Shown here one piece after another: positions 6,179 through 16,302 of a stretch of DNA of 41,852 nt (position 1 is the first letter of the stretch; every line of letters begins with the position of its first letter). A program made the position numbers and the translations under genes. Source of the DNA: Streptacidiphilus carbonis. GTDB lineage: Bacteria > Actinomycetota > Actinomycetes > Streptomycetales > Streptomycetaceae. The notes under the pieces are model-generated. The model saw only the letters and a program-made list of their open reading frames with translations, did not search any database and was not told the DNA's origin. The stretch covers positions 1 through 41,852 of the forward strand of contig NZ_BBPM01000017.1 in NCBI RefSeq assembly GCF_000787775.1, given 5' to 3'.

Positions 6179-7383
6179 TCAACCCACCTTGGAGGCCCCG
6201 GGCGTCTGGGCAGCGGCCAAGGAGTCCTCCACGAGCTGGGCGTACTGGTGGAAGAGGTCGAGGACGCGGTCAGCGGCGCGTTGGGCGAAGGCTTCGAGCA
6301 GGCGGGGAGCCTCGGCGGGACAGTCGAGTTCGAGCAACTCCCAGCGCGGCCACCAATCCCAGGACCCCTTCTCCCACTTCGGACACTGCGTCAGGAAGTG
6401 GTCGAAGGCCGCCTCAGGCCCTTCGACCCGGATACCCAGGTATGGGCGGCGGTGCAGATCGAAGGGGTCCGGCTTCTTCCGCTGGCCAAGGCCTACGCCG
6501 GCCCGCAGGCCGCTGTCGGGCTCGATCCAGTGCGGCCGAGCCAGCAGCACGCCGATCTCGTCATATGGTGCCTTCTGTCCCTCGGCCTGGTAGGGGAACG
6601 GGCCAACGACGAGCAGTTTCTCGGGGGCGGTGTCGGTGCGTTCGGCCAGAGCAGTGGCGACGGCAGCCGGGAGCAGTTCCAGGACGGAGCATGCAGCCTG
6701 GTGGGCTGCCTGGAGATGTGCGCTGAACTGGAACCCGATGCGGGCCGCGGCCAGGTCGGTGGTGCCATGCCGATCATCCTCTCGATGGTGTCCAGGTAGT
6801 CCTCGGCACTGCGCCGTCCGCGAACGGCCTGGGGCGTGCTCGCCGGCGGGGCGGCGGTGAGCGCGCGGCGCAGCACGTGCGCGAAGTCGGTCAGGCCGAT
6901 TGGTGTGAAGCGCGGGTCTGTGGGCTCGTCGTGGTCGAGCGTCAGGTAGAGGAGGGCCAGCTGCTTGCCGGTATGTACGGCAGCCGCGTAGTCGTCCGCG
7001 AGGCGTGAGGTCTGCCGGTCGCCCTCCTTGGCGTGGATCTTCAGCTCTATGACCAGGGTCAGGTCCGGCGTCGTGACGAGGATGTCGGCGCGGGACTTGG
7101 CACGTACGACCTCCGTCTGGACAGTGATCCGGCCTGGAGTGCGGAGGCGGGATGAGGACTGGTCGACGCTGGCAAGCAGTCCGTCCAGGACCGATGACCC
7201 CAGATCGTGCGGGCCTTGCGGGTTCAGCAGCCAGGCGATCATTCGCTGGTGGGAGACCTCCAGGTGGCCCCACTCCAGGATGCCCAGTACCGTGCTGGGC
7301 CCGAGGAACCAGCCTCCCGCCGTGGTCAGCTCGTCCAACTCGGCTTGCACAGAAGCCCAGTCGGGCCTGCCGGTGTTGGTCAT
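6179..7383 (-). pseudogene. PD-(D/E)XK nuclease-superfamily gene, broken by a frameshift
   Basis: The N-terminal part (about 206 residues from the ATG at 7383, with GGGGGGAG upstream) carries a PD-(D/E)XK core: Glu91 in VQTEVV, Asp100 in SRADILV, and Glu113-Leu-Lys115 in LVIELKIHAKEGDRQTSRLA. After IERMIGMA the frame changes. The meaningful continuation, TTDLAAARIGFQFSAHLQAA through CPKWEKGSWDWWPRWELLEL to the stop at 6179, lies in another frame. Restoring one base near 6763-6766 would give ...GMATTDLAAARIG... and a single protein of about 401 residues. The nuclease core is upstream of the break, so a truncated product could still fold. It resembles stand-alone PD-(D/E)XK proteins of defence islands. 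A sequencing error is a real alternative. Confidence 0.75.
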
Positions 7384-7573
7384 CGTCGTCAACTCCCCCC
7401 GTTGTCGTCGGGAGGAGTGAATCACGGAGGTCTGACAGTCTGCAGACGGTCGTGTCCACGCCGTGTCCAGAACGGTGTTGGTTGTCGGCCGGCCGTGAGC
7501 ATCCGCCGAGTCCGGTGCAGCACCGGCATCCCGGACCGATCCGGAGCGCCTCTGCCTCTCGCGCGGTCGGCAC

Positions 7574-8143
7574 TCAGGCCAGGCGGACCAGACCGTTGAG
7601 CATCTTCTCCAGTAGATCGTTGTTCGCGTTGAAGCTGGCCACAGATGCGGCGATGTTCTCCTCTTGGTCCATGTCCTGCCAGGAGACGGTGTAACCAGCG
7701 TCGCGGGAGAGTTGGGCGAGGAAGGCGCGCTGGGTGCGACCGTTGCCTTCCCGGAATGGGTGAATAGCGTTCACGTCGCCGCAGAGGTCGGCCAGGGCTC
7801 TGACGAAACCCGGGCGGTCCAGGCCGCGTAGGTGGTGGTTGTCGGCGAGCCGGTGGAACACGTCCTCTGCGAATGGGACGATGTTGATCGACGGGCAGAA
7901 CGATGTGCCTTTGGAGATCTCTACGGTCCGCAGTTCCCCAGCCCAGGGATACACGCAGCCGAAGATCTGGCGGTGGAACGCCTGTAAGTGGGCGAGGTCG
8001 TAGCCGCCGGGCAGGGGCTCGGCGTCCAGGATCGCGAGTTCTACGACGGCCAGATCCGCCTCGGCTTCGGCCAGCACAGCTGGGTCCGTGATGCCGAGCT
8101 TGTTGCGGAAGGTGCCGTTGGGCTCGACGTAGGGGTCGGTCAC
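7574..8143 (-). CDS. Fic family AMP-transferase toxin
   Basis: A 189-residue Fic-domain protein. Fic enzymes transfer AMP (or other phosphate-containing groups) from a nucleotide to hydroxyl side chains of target proteins. The catalytic motif HPFREGNGRTQR begins at His128 and is intact, including the acidic residue and both arginines. The flap region YPWAGELRTVEISKGTSFCP is also canonical. The GTG start overlaps the antitoxin's TGA as GTGA (8140-8143), so toxin synthesis is coupled to antitoxin translation. There is no inhibitory helix inside this protein, so inhibition must come from the partner gene (a class I arrangement). The target is unknown; VbhT-like Fic toxins AMPylate DNA gyrase and topoisomerase IV. 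Confidence 0.92.
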   Translation of the reverse strand: MTDPYVEPNGTFRNKLGITDPAVLAEAEADLAVVELAILDAEPLPGGYDLAHLQAFHRQIFGCVYPWAGELRTVEISKGTSFCPSINIVPFAEDVFHRLADNHHLRGLDRPGFVRALADLCGDVNAIHPFREGNGRTQRAFLAQLSRDAGYTVSWQDMDQEENIAASVASFNANNDLLEKMLNGLVRLA

Positions 8144-8850
8144 TCAGCAGCCTCGCGGGTATGGCGGGCGAGAGCGCGGGCACGCAGAGCTGCGGCATCG
8201 AGCTCGCCGCGGGCGTAGGCGTTCAGGTCGGCGGTGGTGTCCGCGCTGACCCGCAGTCCCTCCACCTCGGTGGAGCGGACGGCTGAGGCAACAGCCGCGC
8301 GACGGCGCTGGGCCTGCTCGTTCTGTTCGCGCCGCTGGTATTCCTCCAGAGATGCGACGTCCACGCGGCGATGAGTGCCGACTCTGCGGAACTCGATCAC
8401 GCCCTTATCGAGCAGCTTGACCAGGTGCGGCCGGGAAACACCCAGAGTCTTTGCTGCCTGGATGGTTGACAGTTCCATGCTCTTGGCGATCACCTCGACC
8501 GCACGACCGGAGGCAATGAGCGCCATGGTCTCCACGAGGACCGCCAGGGCCTCACGCGGCACCTCCATGGTGACCTTGCCCGCCTCGGCGACGGTGACGT
8601 GGAACGTCTCCGCGCTGCTGGTGAGTGCGTCACGCAGGCACGGAACGGCCTCCTCCGTGGTGCGTTTGCGCTGCTCCTTCCGGGCGCGCTGCACCTGGGG
8701 CCCGCGTAGCGGCAGCAAGTCCTCTGCGGGGCGCTTCCGCGTCTTCTTCTTGGCGCGTGACGTCTGAGGCTCGTGGGCGATGCCTACTGTCTCGCCGTTG
8801 GGTTGCCGCTTCTGCTTGATTGGCTTTTGCTCCTGGTGGGTCACAGGCAT
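8140..8850 (-). CDS. HTH DNA-binding antitoxin with VbhA-type Fic-inhibitory motif
   Basis: About 236 residues in three parts. Residues 1-75 are a Lys/Arg/Gln-rich tail. Residues about 95-175 are an excisionase/MerR-like HTH domain (TIQAAKTLGVSRPHLVKLLD, then FRRVGTHRRV). The C-terminal segment STEVEG ... TADLNAYARGELDAAALRAR resembles VbhA antitoxins: STEVEG fits the Fic-inhibitory motif [S/T]xxxE[G/N], whose Glu blocks ATP gamma-phosphate positioning. One protein therefore probably both represses the operon and neutralises the Fic toxin. The ATG at 8850 has GGGGA 8 nt upstream; GTG at 8871 is an alternative. The promoter and repeated elements lie just upstream. Confidence 0.82.
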   Translation of the reverse strand: MPVTHQEQKPIKQKRQPNGETVGIAHEPQTSRAKKKTRKRPAEDLLPLRGPQVQRARKEQRKRTTEEAVPCLRDALTSSAETFHVTVAEAGKVTMEVPREALAVLVETMALIASGRAVEVIAKSMELSTIQAAKTLGVSRPHLVKLLDKGVIEFRRVGTHRRVDVASLEEYQRREQNEQAQRRRAAVASAVRSTEVEGLRVSADTTADLNAYARGELDAAALRARALARHTREAAE

Positions 8851-8893
8851 TGGATGCGTCCCCGGCTTCACTGGCTAACCGTCGTCATCCGCA

Positions 8894-8933: not shown

Positions 8934-9060
8934 ACCTATAGTGACTGGCTGGCAGCTGCGGGTGGCCGAAGGGGCGCCTCGCGCGACACAACAAGACTGT
9001 GTCCACACCGGATCGCTCAGCACCTACGGGGCGCAATGCGCACACCAGAGGGAATACAGC

Positions 9061-9467
9061 GGACGAGTCGGCCTGTACGCCGGGTTTTGTCTCGCGGGGG
9101 CCTTGCGGCCCGCGCGGAGGCGGTCATCCATCTACGGCTGCCGTTGCCGACAGCCTCCAGCGGTCTACCCGCAGGCTCGGGCGGGCAACCCTCGAACGCC
9201 TGCGCGGAGCGCCTCGCGGCGCTCCATCTTGACCTTGCTCCAGGTGGGGTTTACCTAGCTGCCCAGGTCACCCTGGGCACTGGTGGTCTCTTACACCACC
9301 GTTTCACCCTTACCGGCGGCCGAAGCCGCCGGCGGTCTGTTTTCTGTGGCACTTTCCCGCGGGTCACCCCGGGTGGGCGTTACCCACCACCCTGCCGTGT
9401 GGAGCCCGGACGTTCCTCGGCACACCCCGTGAAGGGTGCAACGCGACCGCCCGGCCGGCTCGTCCGC
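9061..9467 (-). ncRNA. rnpB: RNase P RNA, bacterial class A
   Basis: This is the catalytic RNA of RNase P, which matures the 5' ends of tRNAs. On the minus strand the 5' end GGACGAG (9465-9459) pairs with CTCGTCC (9067-9061) to close helix P1. Conserved elements follow in order: GAGGAACGTCCGGGCTCC, ACAGAAAACAGACCGCC, GGTAAGGGTGAAACGGTGG, TAAACCCCACCTGGAGCAAG, and the 3' part AGATGGATGACCGCC ... AAAACCCGGCGTACAGGCCG. The length of about 405 nt is typical for actinomycetes. A TACCAT -10 box lies at 9483-9478. The promoter and first about 50 nt are duplicated at 11761-11857. The ends are placed from helix P1 and could shift by a few bases. Confidence 0.96.
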
Positions 9468-9513
9468 CGTGTGGACCATGGTAGCGGCTCCCGGGAGGGC
9501 GCCGGCCCCGTGA
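9418..9513 (-). repeat. rnpB promoter and 5' end, copy A (intact)
   Basis: This is the functional copy, running from the rnpB promoter into its first helices. It is matched by copy B about 2.3 kb away in the same orientation. The shared core from AGGGTGCAACGCGA to TAGCGG differs by five substitutions and two single-base indels over about 56 positions, and similarity extends through AGGGCGCC and CCCCGTGA on the promoter side. The stop of the second dioxygenase gene lies only 10 bp outside this copy. Confidence 0.75.
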
Positions 9514-9523
9514 TCGGTTGTGT

Positions 9524-10300
9524 TCAAGGTCGGACGGGCGGCATGAGATCGCTCTCGCTGACGGTGTAGGTCAGCGGGGGATAGATGAAGTCCGTTTCAT
9601 TGTTCTCGCGGCGTCGGAGTTGGTAGAACTCACGCTTCTGCTCATCGTCGGCCGGCATGAGGCGCGCGCCCTGCGGGAGGTACGCCTGTCCGTCGCGAAA
9701 GCGGACGAAGGTCTTTGAGGTTCGAAACGTCAGGCCCATCCACTGGTTGTCCGCCGGACGGATGCGCGCGTCCAGCACGATCTTGTGCTTGAGTCGCCGA
9801 TTCGATTTGACGGAGAAGGCGATGACAGTGTTGTGAGTGAGAGGGATCTCAAACGTTTCACCATCCGACCCCTTTGATTCGAAGATAAGCTTCCTCGGCG
9901 GCCCCAGTTCGGGGTGCTCGTAACAGGAGAAGACGGCGATAAACGACTCGTCAGCCAGATCAAGGGCTTGGTCGGAATGGCTGCCCATGGTTGTGTAAGC
10001 GTTTGTGTAGCACTCGATGAGGGCGTTGTTGAAGCCGACGGAAAGCGCCGCACAGCCTTGGATCTGCTGTGCCAGCCGTTCATGCACCGTACTGAAACAC
10101 TGCGCCGGGCTGCCGTACCGAGTAGTTGTACGTACGAGAGGAACACCGCCCGCCTCGTCGAGCCTGGTCAGCACGGCGCCGCGCCGGCCTTTGCCCACGT
10201 CCTCCAGACGAGCCGAATTCGACAGCTCCGCAAAGAGGTTCCCCTCGATTGGCAGGGCATACGAAAGGATCTCGTCCGAGATCCTAGACTCGGGGGGCAA
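9524..10300 (-). CDS. AlkB-like 2OG-Fe(II) dioxygenase, gene 2 of a tandem pair
   Basis: A 258-residue predicted 2-oxoglutarate- and Fe(II)-dependent dioxygenase. The facial triad is complete: His108-x-Asp110 in TTMGSHSDQALDL and His172 in NRRLKHKIVLD. Arg193 in GLTFRTS would bind 2-oxoglutarate, and LTFR matches the C-terminal signature of AlkB DNA/RNA demethylases. An N-x-Y pair precedes the HxD, as in AlkB. The start is TTG at 10300, supported by GGAG 6-7 nt upstream and by the 17-nt overlap with the preceding stop. The upstream gene encodes a paralogue with the same spacing of catalytic residues. GC content appears well below that of the flanking core genes, suggesting transfer. The substrate is unknown; nucleic acid is an inference from the AlkB-like motif. 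Confidence 0.75.
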   Translation of the reverse strand: MPPESRISDEILSYALPIEGNLFAELSNSARLEDVGKGRRGAVLTRLDEAGGVPLVRTTTRYGSPAQCFSTVHERLAQQIQGCAALSVGFNNALIECYTNAYTTMGSHSDQALDLADESFIAVFSCYEHPELGPPRKLIFESKGSDGETFEIPLTHNTVIAFSVKSNRRLKHKIVLDARIRPADNQWMGLTFRTSKTFVRFRDGQAYLPQGARLMPADDEQKREFYQLRRRENNETDFIYPPLTYTVSESDLMPPVRP

Positions 10301-11513
10301 CGTAGTCTCCAGTATTCATGCTGAAGAGCAGTTCTTCGCCGTAGTCGATGAAGGACGAGGTCCTGTTCTCCTCGGCGTACAGCCTGCGCAGGCTGTCCAT
10401 GCCGGCCTGTGTGGGTGGCTCCAGCTTCGCCAGATCGCCGGCCATTTTGAGGAACGTGTGGCCGTTCTTGTGAACGGCTTCGGCATTCGAACAACGCACC
10501 ACGTAGCCGAGACGGGTCGGGAGCAACTCGGCGTCCAGCGCTGAGGGCCGGATTTCGTGGGTATACAGGCGGTTGGTCGACAGCGGCATGAAGAACACGG
10601 AGCCGGGGTAGAGCGTGATGGCGAACTGCACAGGGAGCGCGACGCCGTCGCCTGCTTCGGACGGATCCTTGAGGCGAAAGTGGAGTTTGGTCAGTCCGCT
10701 GGTGCCCTTTACGCCGTAGTCGAAGGCGTCTTCGGCCAGAGGCTGCAGTTTGTCGAGCCCGTCGTAGAAGGTGCAGAAGGCCATGATGCCGTTGACGGGC
10801 ATGTCCTTGGTCTTGTCGGCATGGGACGAGATCTTGGCCTTGGACTGCTTGCGCTCGGCCGTGGCGAGGGTGTTGTGGTAGATCTGAGCGAGAACGTGAT
10901 TCAGCGGCGCATGGTTCTGAAAGACGGCCGCGGCCTCGCGGTTCAGAGCCTCGACGATGGACGCGTCCGTCGGGCGGAAGGTCTCGGTCGGCCCCGATAG
11001 ATTCGTGGAGCACCGGAGCAGGCGGAAATGCAGTTCGTCACCGGTTTGCGTGACGGGCGTCAGATAGATCCCGCTGCGGTGGGCCGTTCCGGGCTTGGTG
11101 GACTCCGTCAGGGACTGGAACTCGTGCTCCGCACTGATCCGTCCGAAGTGATCGGCGTCGAGGTCGAAAAAGCGACGGTAGTACACGCCGGCGCCGTGTA
11201 CGCGGACGGGCACCCGGCCGAGGTCCACCAGAGCCCAAGCGCGGCGGTCGTCCTCTTGGTAACCGTGTGACAGCCCCCGCACAACGAATACCCGGGCCGC
11301 CGCATCCAACCGGCGGCCGCTGATCCCGGATACGTCGCCACACAGGTAGACGGTCTTCTGTGCGAGGTCGAGTGATCCGGATGCAAGGTCTTCCGGCGTG
11401 ACCGTGGACCCGAAAAAGTCTCTGACCAAGTCATGGTTCTGCAGCGGTGAAGGCGCAACCAGGATGTTGCTCGCGTCCACGATGCCGGCTTCCGCCGGCT
11501 CTGCTGTGCCCAT
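10284..11513 (-). CDS. 2OG-Fe(II) dioxygenase-like protein with long N-terminal domain, gene 1 of pair
   Basis: About 409 residues. The C-terminal half is a double-stranded beta-helix dioxygenase: His-x-Asp in KISSHADKTKDMP (about residues 231-233), distal His in NRLYTHEIRP (about 319) and Arg in RLGYVVRCS (about 340). It aligns by motif with the smaller neighbour (SHxDxxxDM, NRxxxHxI, R-T/C-S), so the two are probably ancient paralogues. The first about 190 residues (AQKTVYLCGDVSGISGRRLD, RAWALVDLGRVPVRVHGAGV) match no family I recognise. The ATG at 11513 was chosen over an in-frame GTG at 11546; neither has a strong ribosome site. Both catalytic centres look intact, so the pair may form a heteromer or act sequentially. 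Function unknown. Confidence 0.68.
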   Translation of the reverse strand: MGTAEPAEAGIVDASNILVAPSPLQNHDLVRDFFGSTVTPEDLASGSLDLAQKTVYLCGDVSGISGRRLDAAARVFVVRGLSHGYQEDDRRAWALVDLGRVPVRVHGAGVYYRRFFDLDADHFGRISAEHEFQSLTESTKPGTAHRSGIYLTPVTQTGDELHFRLLRCSTNLSGPTETFRPTDASIVEALNREAAAVFQNHAPLNHVLAQIYHNTLATAERKQSKAKISSHADKTKDMPVNGIMAFCTFYDGLDKLQPLAEDAFDYGVKGTSGLTKLHFRLKDPSEAGDGVALPVQFAITLYPGSVFFMPLSTNRLYTHEIRPSALDAELLPTRLGYVVRCSNAEAVHKNGHTFLKMAGDLAKLEPPTQAGMDSLRRLYAEENRTSSFIDYGEELLFSMNTGDYVAPRV

Positions 11514-11760
11514 CAAACCGTATCTGCCATTCGCGCCCCAATGCACGAACCCGCAGAGCCAACCAGGCGGCTTGCCAGTCCGTTTGACCTACTTGCGTGG
11601 ACTTCCGGACGGTACTCTCTGCCCGTCCGTTGAACCCTGCCGATGCTCTCATGAGGCTCGAAAGCGGGCAACGGGCTGCTGAGGCCCCACACTGCCGAAC
11701 GGATCTCCGGCGGCGCCGGCCGCACCCACTGCAGGAACCGGCTCGCCCGCCTCCACCGCC

Positions 11761-11857
11761 CGGCAGACCCAGCCAGGGTGCAACGCGATCGCCCGCCGGC
11801 TCACCCTCCGTGTGGACGATGGCTAGCGGGGTCGAAGCAGGGCGCCCACCCCCGTGA
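11761..11857 (-). repeat. rnpB promoter and 5' end, copy B (diverged fragment)
   Basis: About 97 bp homologous to 9418-9513 in the same orientation. The -10 region reads TAGCCAT instead of TACCAT because of a one-base insertion, and the P1 strand GGACGAG is changed to AGGGTGAG. Homology stops before the rest of rnpB, so this cannot be a second functional RNase P RNA. It lies upstream of the dioxygenase pair and points toward it, so any residual promoter activity would transcribe that pair. The remaining sequence of the 11514-11944 gap shows no gene. Confidence 0.72.
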
Positions 11858-11944
11858 CTTCGGCGAAGTCGTCTCGTTGGGCGATAAAGTCGGTTGTGAC
11901 CGCCACGCGCTCGGGAACCGGCGACGTCGGGGAGGAGTAGTCAC

Positions 11945-12508
11945 ATGATGGTTGCGCACGAGGTGTTCACCTACGAGGAACTGCTCGACATTCTCGAGAA
12001 CTTCGAAGCTCCCCCTGGTTTCAAGTCCGAACTGGTACGCGGGGAGATCGTCTTGTCACCTCAGGGGCGTGTGCACAGCGAAATCATCCTGGCTGGGCAA
12101 GTTGCCGCCATGGCTGCCGGGCTGCCGCGCTGGCGGGCCATCTCGGACGTACTGAGTCCGTTCCCCCACACCCGGAGCGGCTTCTGCCCCGATGTGTCGA
12201 TCCTGCGGAGCAGTGCCTCCAGGACCGCCAGGCCGCTGCCGCGAAGCGATATCGCAGCCGCGATCGAGGTCGTCTCGGGTGATCTCGGCGAGAAGGCCTA
12301 CGGGATCAAGGTGCAGGAGTACGCGGTCGCCGGGATCGAGGCCTACCTCATCGCCGACCCGTACAAGGGCCTCTGCACGCTGTTCACCGGGCCGGAGAAC
12401 GGGGTGTACCCGGAACCCGAGACCTACCCGTTCGGCGAGACGGTGAGGTTCACCGCGGACGGCACCGAGTTTGTGCTCGACACCTCCGATTGGCCGCGCA
12501 TCGGCTGA
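11945..12508 (+). CDS. Uma2 family (DUF820) PD-(D/E)XK putative nuclease
   Basis: A 187-residue Uma2-family protein of the restriction-endonuclease-like fold, numerous in actinomycetes and cyanobacteria. The biological role is not firmly known. Typical parts are VFTYEELLDILENFEAPPGF, ELVRGEIVLSPQGRVHSEII, the catalytic CPDVSIL (Asp) and AAIEVVSGDLGEKAYGIKVQ (Glu and Lys), and the closing AGIEAYLIADPYKG. GGGAGGAG at 11931-11938 is an excellent ribosome site for the ATG at 11945. The gene is convergent with the RNB exonuclease, with only 22 bp between stops. Confidence 0.9.
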   Translation: MMVAHEVFTYEELLDILENFEAPPGFKSELVRGEIVLSPQGRVHSEIILAGQVAAMAAGLPRWRAISDVLSPFPHTRSGFCPDVSILRSSASRTARPLPRSDIAAAIEVVSGDLGEKAYGIKVQEYAVAGIEAYLIADPYKGLCTLFTGPENGVYPEPETYPFGETVRFTADGTEFVLDTSDWPRIG

Positions 12509-12530: not shown

Positions 12531-13976
12531 TCACGCCGGGGCGAAGCGGATGGTGCGGGTGGCGGGGTCGGCGGTGGTGAGGCGGACGCGGAGGGGGTTG
12601 CCGAGTGGGAGCGGGGCCGCGTCGGGGCGGTCGTCGGTGAGGCGGGCGCGGACGGCTGGTTCGCGGAGTTGGACGGTGCCGGTGCGGTGCTTCCTCTCGT
12701 CCACGTCGATGACCACGCCGTCGAAGGTCTCGCCCTCGCGGCCGCACAGCAGTTCGGTCTCGACGAGGTCGACGCTGGCGCGTTCGACCTCGTGGGCGCG
12801 GCGGTCGCCGGTCTCCATCAGCCTGGGGATCTCCGGCAGCGCCGCCCGCACCCACGCCGGGACCGGTTCGCCCGCCGCCACCGCCACGCAGACCTCGCCC
12901 GCGAAGCGGTCCGCGAGCCGGCGCAGCGGTGCGGTGCAGTGCGCGTACGGGGCGGCGACGGCCGCGTGGCCGGGGTCGGACGGCAGGGTGCCGTCGAAGG
13001 CGGTGTAGGAAGCGCCGCGGAGCAGGCCGGTGCACTCGTTGAGGAAGGCGGCGTGGGCCGGGAGGGCGGGAGTGAGCGAGCGGATCAGCTGCGCGTACGG
13101 GAGACCGTCGGGCCAGTCCACGCCCAGGGCGGCGGCGACCAGGCGGAGCCGGTCGTGGGCGCTCTGCGGCGCCGCCGGGAGGGTCCGGAGCAGGCCGACG
13201 CCCGCGTCCAGCATCATCTCGGCCCCGGCCATGCCGGTGAGCAGGGAGATCTGCGCGTTCCAGGCGTCGGCCGGACGGGGTGCCCGGTAGCTGAGCTGGT
13301 AGCCGCCGTCCACCGGCTCGATCTCCTGCTCGGGGACGGGGAGGCTGATACCGCCGCGGTCCTGCTCGCGGGCCTCGCGCAGCGGCCCGACGACACCCAG
13401 CAGGGCGAGCGCCTCGTCCGCCGGGCCGGCGTCGATGGCCCGCTGCACGCCCGCGTAGTCGAGCTTGCGCCGGCTGCGGACCAGCGCGCGGCGCAGGTCC
13501 GCGACGAGCAGTACGCCGTCCGCGTCCAGGTCGAGTTGCCAGAGCAGGGCGGGCACGTCCTGGCCCGGGAGCAGGCTGGCCGCGCCCTCGGAGAGCTGGG
13601 GCGGGTGCAGCGGGACGCGCATGTCGGGGAAGTACAGGGTCTCCACCCGGCGGCGGGCCTCGGTGTCGATCGCGCCGCCGGGGTGGACGAAGGCGCCGAC
13701 GTCGGCGATGGCGTAGTGGACCCGGAAGCCGTGGCCGCGCCGCTCCAGGTGCATGGCCTGGTCGAGGTCGCGCGACTCGGGCGGGTCGACCGTGAAGAGG
13801 GGCAGGGTGGTGGCGTCCTCGGCCGGAAGGCTGGGCGTCCGCACGGCCTGCTCGACCTCTGCCAGTACCGCCGGCGGCCAGCCGCCCGGGATCTCCATCC
13901 TCGCCCGGAGCTCGGCGAGTTCGCTGTCGATCCGGGCGGTGCCTGCGGTGCGCAGGTTGAGATGGCGGCGAGGCAT
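12531..13976 (-). CDS. RNB-domain (RNase II/R family) 3'-5' exoribonuclease
   Basis: A 481-residue RNase II-type hydrolytic exoribonuclease acting on single-stranded RNA in the cytoplasm. The catalytic core is clear: DPPESRDLDQAMHLER supplies the metal-binding aspartates, then HYAIADVGAFVHPGGAIDTE and RRRVETLYFPDMRVPLHPPQ. CTAPLRRLADRFAGEVC near the C-terminus is the family's R/K-rich substrate loop. There is no obvious N-terminal cold-shock domain and only a short C-terminal S1-like region, as in the compact actinobacterial form. The start ATG fits the conserved opening PRRHLNLRTAG. It follows the alpha-galactosidase gene on the same strand, but a strong hairpin separates them. Confidence 0.93.
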   Translation of the reverse strand: MPRRHLNLRTAGTARIDSELAELRARMEIPGGWPPAVLAEVEQAVRTPSLPAEDATTLPLFTVDPPESRDLDQAMHLERRGHGFRVHYAIADVGAFVHPGGAIDTEARRRVETLYFPDMRVPLHPPQLSEGAASLLPGQDVPALLWQLDLDADGVLLVADLRRALVRSRRKLDYAGVQRAIDAGPADEALALLGVVGPLREAREQDRGGISLPVPEQEIEPVDGGYQLSYRAPRPADAWNAQISLLTGMAGAEMMLDAGVGLLRTLPAAPQSAHDRLRLVAAALGVDWPDGLPYAQLIRSLTPALPAHAAFLNECTGLLRGASYTAFDGTLPSDPGHAAVAAPYAHCTAPLRRLADRFAGEVCVAVAAGEPVPAWVRAALPEIPRLMETGDRRAHEVERASVDLVETELLCGREGETFDGVVIDVDERKHRTGTVQLREPAVRARLTDDRPDAAPLPLGNPLRVRLTTADPATRTIRFAPA

Positions 13977-14028: not shown

Positions 14029-14066
14029 GGTCATGGATTGCTGATTGCTCCTTCGGTGAGGCGGCG

Positions 14067-16160
14067 TCAGTTCTGGCTGAAGCCGGTGAAGTCGGACTCG
14101 CCGCTGGTGCCGTCGCTGTGGGAGGTGGTGAAGACGCCCACGTCCTGGGTGGCGGCGATGCCGGGCAGGGTGGCGGTGCCGACCTGGGTCCAACTGGTGC
14201 CGTCGGTGGAGTAGTAGCCGGTTACGGCGGAGCCGGAGCGGACCAGCTTGAGCCAGCTGGGATAGACGGCGGTGCCGCTGCCGCTGTCGCTGGGGGCGCT
14301 GTTGCTGTCCAACTGTCCGTCGCCGTTGCTGTCCCACTGCAGGACGTAGCCCTTGCCGGGGGCCTCGGCCAGGATGGCGTAGCCGGGCGAGCTCGCCGGC
14401 TTGGTGATGTCGTTGCGGATCATGATGCCGGCCTTGGCCCAGGCGTTGGTGTCGGCCTGCGCGGTGATCTTGACGACTGTGGTCGAGCCGTCGTGCTCGG
14501 CGCCCTGCTGGTAGATGGTGCTGTACTGGTCGGTGCTGCCGTAGACGTCGGCGCCCGCGCCGTCGATCGCCAGGTTGGCGCCCTGCTGGCCGAAGAGCGC
14601 GGTGGTGTCGGTGTAGGTCTTCCAGGGCGCCTGCACCGGCGAGGCGATGACCGCCGAGGAGGTGGTGGTCACCTTCTCGGTGCCGCCGCTCCAGCCTGCC
14701 GCTGCGGTGGCGATCAGGTCGTACGAGGCGATCGGGGCCGGCAGCGAGGCCGGGGCCGTCACCTTGAAGGCGGCCAGGACCTCGTGGCCGACCGCGACCC
14801 GGTCCGCCTTGGTCGCCGTCAGCGCTTTGACGGTCCATCCGCTGGGGGCCTTCAGGCCGACCCTGACGTTGGTGACGGCCTCGGCCCCGTTGTTGACGAA
14901 CGTGGTGTTGACGGTGGTGGACTGGCCGGCCGCCTGCTGCGGCACCACGCTGCTCAGGGTCAGCTGCGGCGGGTACAGCTTGGGCTTGGACGTGCCGGCG
15001 ACCCGGTACATCACCGTGCCGTGAGCCGGGACGGCGGCGCTGATCACGCCGTTGGTCGTGGTCGTGGTCTTCGACCACAGGTCGTGCAGGGTGTAGGCCT
15101 TGGCGCTGCCGAGGCCCACCGCGACGGCCGTGGTGGAGATGGTGGCCGCGGTGCTGTTCTCGTTGAACAGGGTGACCGCGACACTGCCGTCGGCGAGCGG
15201 CTTGGCGAGGACGTCCAGGCCGCCGGCCGAGGAGACCTCGGTGGCCTGCTTGCCCAGGCTGTCCTGGTCGACCGCGATGACGTCCTTGTTGGCGTAGATC
15301 GACAGGGTGCCGGCGCTCGCGGTACGGAGATCGGTGCCCGAGATCAGCGGGGCGGCCATCTCGGCCCAGAGCGAGAACTCGGACCGGTCCTCGGTCGGCG
15401 TCATCCCGTTGCCGACCTCCAGCATGTCGGGGTCGTTCCATGCGCCGGGTTTGGCGCCGGCGCTGAGGCCGACGTTCTGGTGGAAGATCGAGAGCATCGA
15501 GCCGTACGAGGCGTTGATGTCCCCGGTGGTCCGCCAGAGGTTGCCGACCGAGCCGCCCCAACTGGCCACGTCGTCGTTGCCCCAGCTGCAGAGGCTGTAG
15601 ACGATGGGACGGCCGGTCTTCGCCAGAGCGTCGCCCATGGCCTGGTAGCGGGTCTGGGCCGGCACGCCCTGGTTGTTGCAGTTGTCGTACTTGAGGTAGT
15701 CGACGTCCCAGGCGGCAAAGGAGTTGGCGTCCTGCTGCTCGTGCCCGAGGCTGCCCGGGTACCCGGCGCAGGTGAGGGTGCCCGCGGTCTCGTAGATGCC
15801 CAGCTTGAGGCCTTTGGAGTGGACGTAGTCGGCGACGCCCTTGATGCCGTCGGGGAACTTCACCGGGTCGGGGACCAGGTTGCCGCCGGCGTCGCGGCTG
15901 TGGGTGAGCCAGCAGTCGTCGATGTTGACGTACTGGTAGCCGGCGGCGGCCAGACCGCTGCTGACGATCTTGTCGGCGGTCTGCTCGACCAGTTGCTCGC
16001 TGACGTTGCAGCCGAAGGCGTTCCAGTCGTTCCAGCCCATCGGCGGGGTGAGCGCCAGGCCGTTGTCGAGGGCGGCGGCGGGGGTGGCGCTGAGCGGGAC
16101 GGCGGCGAGGGACGCCGAGGTGAGCACGGCCGCGACGAGCGCGGCCCAGGTCTTGCGCAT
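14067..16160 (-). CDS. secreted GH27 alpha-galactosidase (melibiase) with accessory domains
   Basis: A 697-residue exported enzyme that removes terminal alpha-galactose from oligosaccharides and galactomannans. Residues 1-30 form a Sec signal peptide (MRKTWAALVAAVLTSASLAA, then ATPAAA). The GH27 barrel starts at LTPPMGWNDWNAFGCN. The nucleophile Asp159 lies in DYLKYDNCNNQG, and the acid/base is in GAWNDPDMLEVG. A beta-sandwich follows, then an NPCBM-associated (NEW3-type) domain (PQLTLSSVVPQQAAGQSTTV ... APSGWTVKAL). The C-terminal about 190 residues (YTDTTALFGQQ ... GESDFTGFSQN) look like a concanavalin-like carbohydrate-binding module. The ATG at 16160 has AGGAGAAGG just upstream. It is likely sugar-inducible; its promoter resembles the operator of the sugar regulator at the window's left end. 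Confidence 0.95.
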   Translation of the reverse strand: MRKTWAALVAAVLTSASLAAVPLSATPAAALDNGLALTPPMGWNDWNAFGCNVSEQLVEQTADKIVSSGLAAAGYQYVNIDDCWLTHSRDAGGNLVPDPVKFPDGIKGVADYVHSKGLKLGIYETAGTLTCAGYPGSLGHEQQDANSFAAWDVDYLKYDNCNNQGVPAQTRYQAMGDALAKTGRPIVYSLCSWGNDDVASWGGSVGNLWRTTGDINASYGSMLSIFHQNVGLSAGAKPGAWNDPDMLEVGNGMTPTEDRSEFSLWAEMAAPLISGTDLRTASAGTLSIYANKDVIAVDQDSLGKQATEVSSAGGLDVLAKPLADGSVAVTLFNENSTAATISTTAVAVGLGSAKAYTLHDLWSKTTTTTNGVISAAVPAHGTVMYRVAGTSKPKLYPPQLTLSSVVPQQAAGQSTTVNTTFVNNGAEAVTNVRVGLKAPSGWTVKALTATKADRVAVGHEVLAAFKVTAPASLPAPIASYDLIATAAAGWSGGTEKVTTTSSAVIASPVQAPWKTYTDTTALFGQQGANLAIDGAGADVYGSTDQYSTIYQQGAEHDGSTTVVKITAQADTNAWAKAGIMIRNDITKPASSPGYAILAEAPGKGYVLQWDSNGDGQLDSNSAPSDSGSGTAVYPSWLKLVRSGSAVTGYYSTDGTSWTQVGTATLPGIAATQDVGVFTTSHSDGTSGESDFTGFSQN

Positions 16161-16266
16161 GCCTTCTCCTGTATCCGAGTGGGTGGAACGGGACAGGGTG
16201 GTTCGGCAGTGCTGTGCTGTTGCTGTGCTGGTGCTTTTGCTGTGCTCCCTGCGCAGGGCCTGACCA

Positions 16267-16302
16267 AGACAAGCAAAACGCACAGCAAACGTCAATATCA
16301 AA
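16267..16302 (-). promoter_or_regulatory. alpha-galactosidase promoter and operator-like repeats
   Basis: On the minus strand TTGACG (16295-16290) and TTGTCT (16272-16267) are 17 bp apart, giving a start near 16260. The plus strand shows CAAAACG, CAAACG, TCAATA and CAAACA between 16274 and 16303. The order CAAACG-TCAATA-CAAAC also occurs at 1127-1150 beside the DeoR/LacI regulator. The long leader (about 100 nt) then contains imperfect tandem copies of AGCACAGCA (16209-16248). Confidence 0.4.

Follow-up and report, generated by a model that had tools for sequence, protein, structure and literature searches.

An old foreign insertion at the 5' end of rnpB in Streptacidiphilus carbonis, better explained by illegitimate capture than by an rnpB-targeting element

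The rnpB locus and its partial second copy

We analysed a stretch of 41,852 nucleotides (nt) from Streptacidiphilus carbonis (assembly GCF_000787775.1, contig NZ_BBPM01000017.1, positions 1 to 41,852; hereafter the window), in which the RNase P RNA gene rnpB lies beside two genes of a predicted 2-oxoglutarate-Fe(II) (2OG-Fe(II)) oxygenase module, here called ox258 and ox420. The rnpB gene is intact, as an initial annotation made from the sequence alone had stated. Its promoter and first ~50 nt (copy A) recur in decayed form on the far side of the oxygenase genes (copy B). A short copy of a nearby RNB exoribonuclease gene, the RNB patch, sits between copy B and the oxygenase genes (Table 1).

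Table 1. Features at and around the rnpB locus of the window.
Feature	Position	Strand	Evidence and remarks
Intact rnpB, bacterial RNase P RNA class A	9060..9462	-	Rfam RF00010, 291.1 bits, model positions 1-367 of 367
Copy A: promoter and first ~50 nt of rnpB, continuous with the intact gene	9418..9513	-	Pairs with 11761-11857
Foreign insert: upstream region and two genes	9514..11700	-	Empty sites in relatives; module homology to other genomes
ox258, AlkB-like 2OG-Fe(II) oxygenase, 258 amino acids (aa)	9524..10300	-	PF13532 (2OG-FeII_Oxy_2), 34.1 bits, cut-off 31.2
ox420, probable 2OG-Fe(II) oxygenase	10284..11513	-	409 aa from ATG; 420 aa from GTG at 11546; 17-nt overlap with ox258
Promoter-like blocks of the module (TTGCCC and GAGCAT, 17 nt apart)	11643..11671	-	Function inferred only
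RNB patch: 69 nt copied from the RNB exonuclease gene, in the same orientation	11701..11769	-	87% identity to 12827-12894
Copy B: promoter and first ~50 nt of rnpB in decayed form, bordering the ancestral upstream flank	11761..11857	-	Alignment; relatives
Uma2-family gene	11945..12508	+	PF05685, 71.3 bits; adjoins rnpB in the empty-site relatives G010, G004, G001 and G006
RNB exoribonuclease gene, source of the patch (12827-12894)	12531..13976	-	PF00773, 128.6 bits

The duplication of the rnpB promoter and 5' end is real. Pairwise alignment of the two copies, which have the same orientation, gave 99 columns with 78 identities, 16 mismatches and 5 gapped columns (E ~1e-12). A search of the strain's own 8.46-Mb genome with copy B returned two matches, copy B itself and copy A (E 6e-12). 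The value of 88% over the core given in the initial annotation is roughly right for two core segments (21 nt at 95% and 31 nt at 84%), whereas the overall identity is 79%. Its coordinates and orientation hold, as does the spacing of 10 nt between rnpB with its promoter and the oxygenase genes.

Comparison with related genomes

The comparison within the genus covered 13 other genomes, all of which have rnpB; for 12 of them it spanned 20 kb around the gene, and for G008 a contig of 3.6 kb. In four relatives (G010, G004, G001 and G006), the equivalent of window positions ~14000-11761, with the RNB gene, the Uma2 gene and copy B, abuts the equivalent of 9513-9059 and runs straight into rnpB. The paired alignments overlap within the repeat by 98, 73, 62 and 51 nt, respectively, and the homology to G010 starts at base 9513, the very base at which copy A ends. 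Moreover, copy B retains the ancestral left flank of G010 and G004. Because these four relatives of the 13 offer empty sites and copy B keeps the ancestral flank, the comparison indicates that ~2.25 kb was inserted on the branch of the window, leaving a direct repeat of ~97 nt. This supports the earlier proposal of an insertion at the 5' end of rnpB that left the old end behind as a direct repeat, for which an alignment with related genomes had been suggested as a check.

The flank of rnpB varies among the other relatives. In six genomes (G012, G009, G002, G005, G007 and G008), which lack the Uma2 gene at this place, the RNB match stops 12-45 nt short of the rnpB match. The RNB match of G003 ends 2.3 kb before rnpB, with another long open reading frame (ORF) in between. 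No RNB match was seen near rnpB in G011 and G013, where the flank with the YaaA-like gene adjoins rnpB. None of the 13 relatives has a match to the oxygenase module next to rnpB, within up to 10 kb on each side in 12 of them and within the 3.6-kb contig of G008.

A copy of the RNB gene at the junction

The RNB patch is a second scar, which was missing from the initial annotation. It emerged from a BLAST search of the insert against the window (E 5.5e-17), and its source within the RNB gene lies 1.1 kb away. The patch and copy B share 9 nt, and the motif GGTNTGC is common to rnpB and the RNB gene at this place, the one junction open to such a comparison. The patch has 60 identities to the RNB gene of the window, and 57 each to those of G010 and G004. 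Since it is closest to the window's own gene, if by a small margin, the patch is most likely a local copy rather than a piece brought in by a foreign element.

The patch also bears on the main rival explanation, a history in two steps. A tandem duplication would have joined position +50 of rnpB to the RNB gene, producing a second stretch of RNB, Uma2 and rnpB, and foreign DNA would later have taken the place of the central part of the redundant copy, so that only 69 nt of RNB and the rnpB promoter were left. The order of copy B followed by RNB sequence from 12894 onward, in the same orientation, is exactly the junction of such a tandem duplication, and the two sides have a short motif in common. 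In bacteria, tandem duplication under selection has been described between microhomologies of 9 bp (PMC11111574). However, this history requires two events and a clean loss of ~1 kb of the second copy, and BLAST of positions 9400-11900 against the window found no other long remnant of that copy. We consider an overwritten tandem duplication rather unlikely.

Decay of copy B and the candidate promoter of the oxygenase genes

In the 94 gap-free columns of the repeat alignment, 16 sites were altered in copy B alone and 2 in copy A alone. The sequence of the -10 region is TA[CG]CATGGTC in copy A and in all 13 relatives, and TAGCCATCGTC in copy B, which has one inserted base (-10 box TAGCCAT versus TACCAT). 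This bias of changes towards copy B is the decay expected of a useless copy.

The module has a candidate promoter of its own. Two promoter-like blocks upstream of ox420 align in 17 modules, including that of the window, in a set picked for upstream similarity. Both blocks were matched by pattern in 18 of 46 distinct modules, and hence they are not universal. The oxygenase genes are probably expressed from this upstream region. Capture of the rnpB promoter, which the initial annotation had put forward, is not needed and is weakly disfavoured, because copy B has decayed, its -10 box is altered and the module brings a conserved upstream region. In its fuller form, this idea holds that copy B is a hijacked RNase P RNA promoter from which both oxygenase genes are driven, and that the arrangement was kept for this reason; it draws on the fact that copy B points into these genes. 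Yet, the upstream region of the module is similar in carriers without rnpB at that place, and neither the -10 insertion nor the 16 changes of copy B are seen in the functional copy. We regard this idea as very improbable.

The oxygenase pair

The initial annotation had called both genes 2OG-Fe(II) dioxygenases. This stands for ox258, which scores above the PF13532 cut-off, whereas the ORF of ox420 (10284-11546) has no Pfam match at E 0.01. The structure model of ox258 (pLDDT 83.8) has human ALKBH2 (ABH2) as its best fold match in the PDB (E 2.5e-10). Residues H108, D110 and H172, which make up an HxD...H pattern, are invariant in 6 sequences. By profile and predicted fold, ox258 is thus an AlkB-fold protein and an AlkB-like 2OG-Fe(II) oxygenase. 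For ox420, PF13532 gave a weak match in 11 of 13 aligned members (best E 4.8e-4); the member of the window scored 16.6 bits against the cut-off of 31.2, and its structure model reached a pLDDT of only 37.9. From these weak profile matches, ox420 is a probable 2OG-Fe(II) oxygenase that may belong to the same family. The commonest length among 120 listed homologues of ox420 is 409 aa.

The pair forms a stand-alone two-gene module. Both genes occurred together in all 18 loci compared, including the window, and apart from the pair and ORFs overlapping it no conserved neighbour was found in at least 4 of these 18 loci. DNA matches to other carriers mostly end within ~12 nt of the ox258 stop codon, with exceptions up to more than 100 nt, and their upstream reach varies up to ~250 nt. 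The insert is covered by this module homology. In G153 and G185, the strongest matches to other carriers, among the matches listed, are confined to the module and its upstream stretch. Such confinement does not prove a unit of transfer, as the functional part would also stay similar.

The module is widespread. We found ox420 in 71 of 394 family genomes, that of the window included, and 2644 database proteins matched it among 7996 candidates scored. Three records of a plasmid set matched, two from Embleya and one from Nonomuraea, all of them replicons larger than 3 Mb. The module had no match in a phage set, which speaks against a phage origin. Neither oxygenase matched PADLOC or NCBIfam at E 0.1, and the pair was accordingly discarded as a listed defence system. 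The pair was also seen on a contig labelled as an Isosphaera metagenome-assembled genome, which may reflect transfer to a planctomycete or a mis-binned contig.

Evidence for and against a mobile element

No recombinase family matched any ORF of at least 60 aa in the insert, in agreement with the initial annotation, which had noted the lack of an integrase. Besides the two oxygenase genes, these are 13 ORFs overlapping the insert, none of which had a Pfam match at E 0.1. We examined ~0.7-3 kb of flank for repeats around 46 distinct modules, the one of the window included, and an adjacent flanking repeat was found only at that of the window. One other locus, L044, shows a weak repeat of 45 nt that lies at a distance from the edges of its module. 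A mobile module that makes its own target duplication was rejected on this basis. Clean empty sites for the module at other loci did not emerge among the matches listed, either within the genus (G005 and G008) or across the same 40 relatives (G153 and G185).

An integrative element might have targeted the 5' end of rnpB itself. Its attachment site would have carried a replacement promoter and 5' end, its integrase would since have been lost, and copies A and B would be attL and attR. The flush direct repeats around the insert and the rebuilt RNA gene would suit such an element, and so would the fact that the same genus appears to use the rnpB 3' end for tyrosine-integrase elements. However, the 2.25-kb insert is without a recombinase family, and this model does not account for the RNB patch at one of the junctions. 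Fragments of the rnpB 5' end also hardly recur. A search with the 5' end, which scored two candidate places per genome and may miss weak copies, matched 371 of the 394 genomes and found two matches in only 4. These are the genome of the window, G212 and G032 with two full-length matches each, and G376, whose second match is an isolated 5' fragment on a different contig; the structure of the window is present in none of the other three. Together with the adjacent repeat in 1 of 46 modules, this makes an rnpB-targeting element, as implied by the initial annotation, improbable.

The fragment of G376 (contig C18; L194, 1501-1680) is diverged and corresponds to about the first 180 nt of rnpB, on a contig other than that of the intact gene.

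The rnpB 3' end looks like an attachment site in this genus. Copies of 25-35 nt of this end are present at other places, in G011 at 23 kb and in G012 at 53 kb downstream, and phage-integrase domain matches begin ~490 bp from the end of rnpB in G011 and ~310 bp from it in G006. The loci concerned are L006/L019 (G011), L009/L021 (G012), L015/L025 (G006), L018, L020, L022, L023 and L027. In the window, overlapping ORFs for a Fic protein and for an antitoxin of the VbhA type, which has a helix-turn-helix domain, lie directly downstream of the 3' end (7574-8871), and on this side the DNA matches to all 13 relatives end at the end of rnpB. The same variable stretch holds a PDDEXK_4 nuclease-like ORF (6493-7425) that matches the PADLOC candidate family PDC-S26. 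In the open-licence literature, where a few papers mention rnpB together with integrases, we found nothing on rnpB in Streptacidiphilus, and nothing on RNase P RNA alongside transfer-messenger RNA (tmRNA) as an attachment site of integrative elements.

At the far end of the RNB gene, a region with an alpha-galactosidase gene (14035-16270) is absent from G010, where its flanks (window positions 16271 and 14034) are 6 nt apart; this is another clean presence/absence site.

Proposed capture during break repair

The final map consists of two ~97-nt copies of the rnpB 5' end around ~2.19 kb of foreign DNA and a 69-nt copy of a host gene. We favour, at a probability of roughly 0.7, a single capture event specific to this lineage, in which break repair without a site-specific recombinase took in a foreign two-gene module. 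A site-specific element is disfavoured because no recombinase was found, the junction carries a patch from a host gene and there is hardly any recurrence.

The capture may have started from a staggered break or a stalled fork, ~97 nt wide, that spanned the promoter and 5' end of rnpB. These 97 nt would be duplicated when both ends were copied, and one end could have been extended by copying 69 nt of the nearby RNB gene at the short shared motif. A DNA fragment with little beyond the upstream region and the two oxygenase genes would then have been joined between the ends, probably via Ku/LigD end joining or template switching. Selection would keep the rnpB-side copy functional, while the other copy drifts. 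A flush target duplication, a local patch and a foreign insert are what repair of a staggered break would leave. A Ku gene (152 bits) and LigD-polymerase genes (252 and 246 bits) are present in the same genome, both on contig C137. As the initial annotation had considered, the event is old, since copy B is only 79% identical to copy A.

Several points weigh against capture by break repair. The age of the event has blurred its exact breakpoints. No donor molecule turned up, which leaves any homology at the foreign ends conjectural. The history in two steps gives the same final map, and the original insert may have been larger and trimmed later. In the comparison of the rnpB copies with G010 and G004, 1 site is shared by both copies and 2 are sites where copy B sides with the relatives; for the RNB patch, 2 shared sites stand against 1. 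These sites are too few to prove a local origin or to date the duplication. The presence of Ku and LigD is not evidence of their use here.

Our results thus point to a real, old and lineage-specific insertion, better explained by illegitimate capture than by an rnpB-targeting element. It is one case of a known kind of event, but owing to the local patch more can be learned from it than from the usual acquisition of a gene. The entry of recombinase-less foreign genes into actinobacterial chromosomes is usually inferred from presence alone. At this locus, several scars of one event are readable, namely the empty site, the duplicated target, the templated patch and the bounds of the insert. The proposed end-joining route thereby becomes checkable in wild genomes via patches at insertion edges.

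More tentatively, and with some doubt, the locus might preserve, as a natural fossil, a horizontal gene transfer that took place by end joining. A foreign fragment of a promoter plus two genes would have closed a staggered break in an essential RNA gene, together with filler copied from a gene 1.1 kb away. The oxygenase pair may spread among actinobacteria largely by such recombinase-free captures. If true, this would explain why the carriers share little besides the module. The overlapping AlkB-like oxygenase pair itself, carried by the 71 sampled family genomes mentioned above, is uncharacterised and forms a separate question.

Comparison with known systems

SXT, which integrates in prfC, is an example of an element that inserts at the 5' end of a gene and rebuilds that gene. 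The locus of the window resembles such elements in the direct repeat of the gene's 5' end and in the rebuilt gene. It differs from them in that no recombinase was found, recurrence at the site is scarce and a patch from a host gene lies at the junction.

The cargo resembles the AlkB-family 2OG-Fe(II) oxygenases (ALKBH2/3 fold) in the predicted fold of ox258 and its HxD...H pattern. In contrast, the genes here form an overlapping pair with a larger, weakly related partner, and activity is only predicted.

Microhomology-mediated tandem duplication around a transferred gene, as described in the available text of PMC11111574, likewise involves illegitimate joining at a short shared motif and horizontally acquired genes. 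That work used a laboratory selection system, whereas the window holds one diverged scar with a foreign insert.

Finally, break repair in Streptomyces ambofaciens left inserts of 42 or 83 bp in two clones, derived from the region near the break, according to the available text of Hoff et al. (2018; PMC5869714). Those inserts came from the strain's own genome after an induced cut, whereas the window holds a foreign two-gene module and a flanking 97-nt duplication, whose mechanism is only inferred. A search of the open-licence literature for the term short-patch double illegitimate recombination returned nothing. The likeness to the scars of S. ambofaciens lies in the small patches from near the break, of which ours has 69 nt, and in an actinobacterial host with Ku and LigD genes. 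In the same text, the authors speculate that exogenous DNA could be integrated by end joining.

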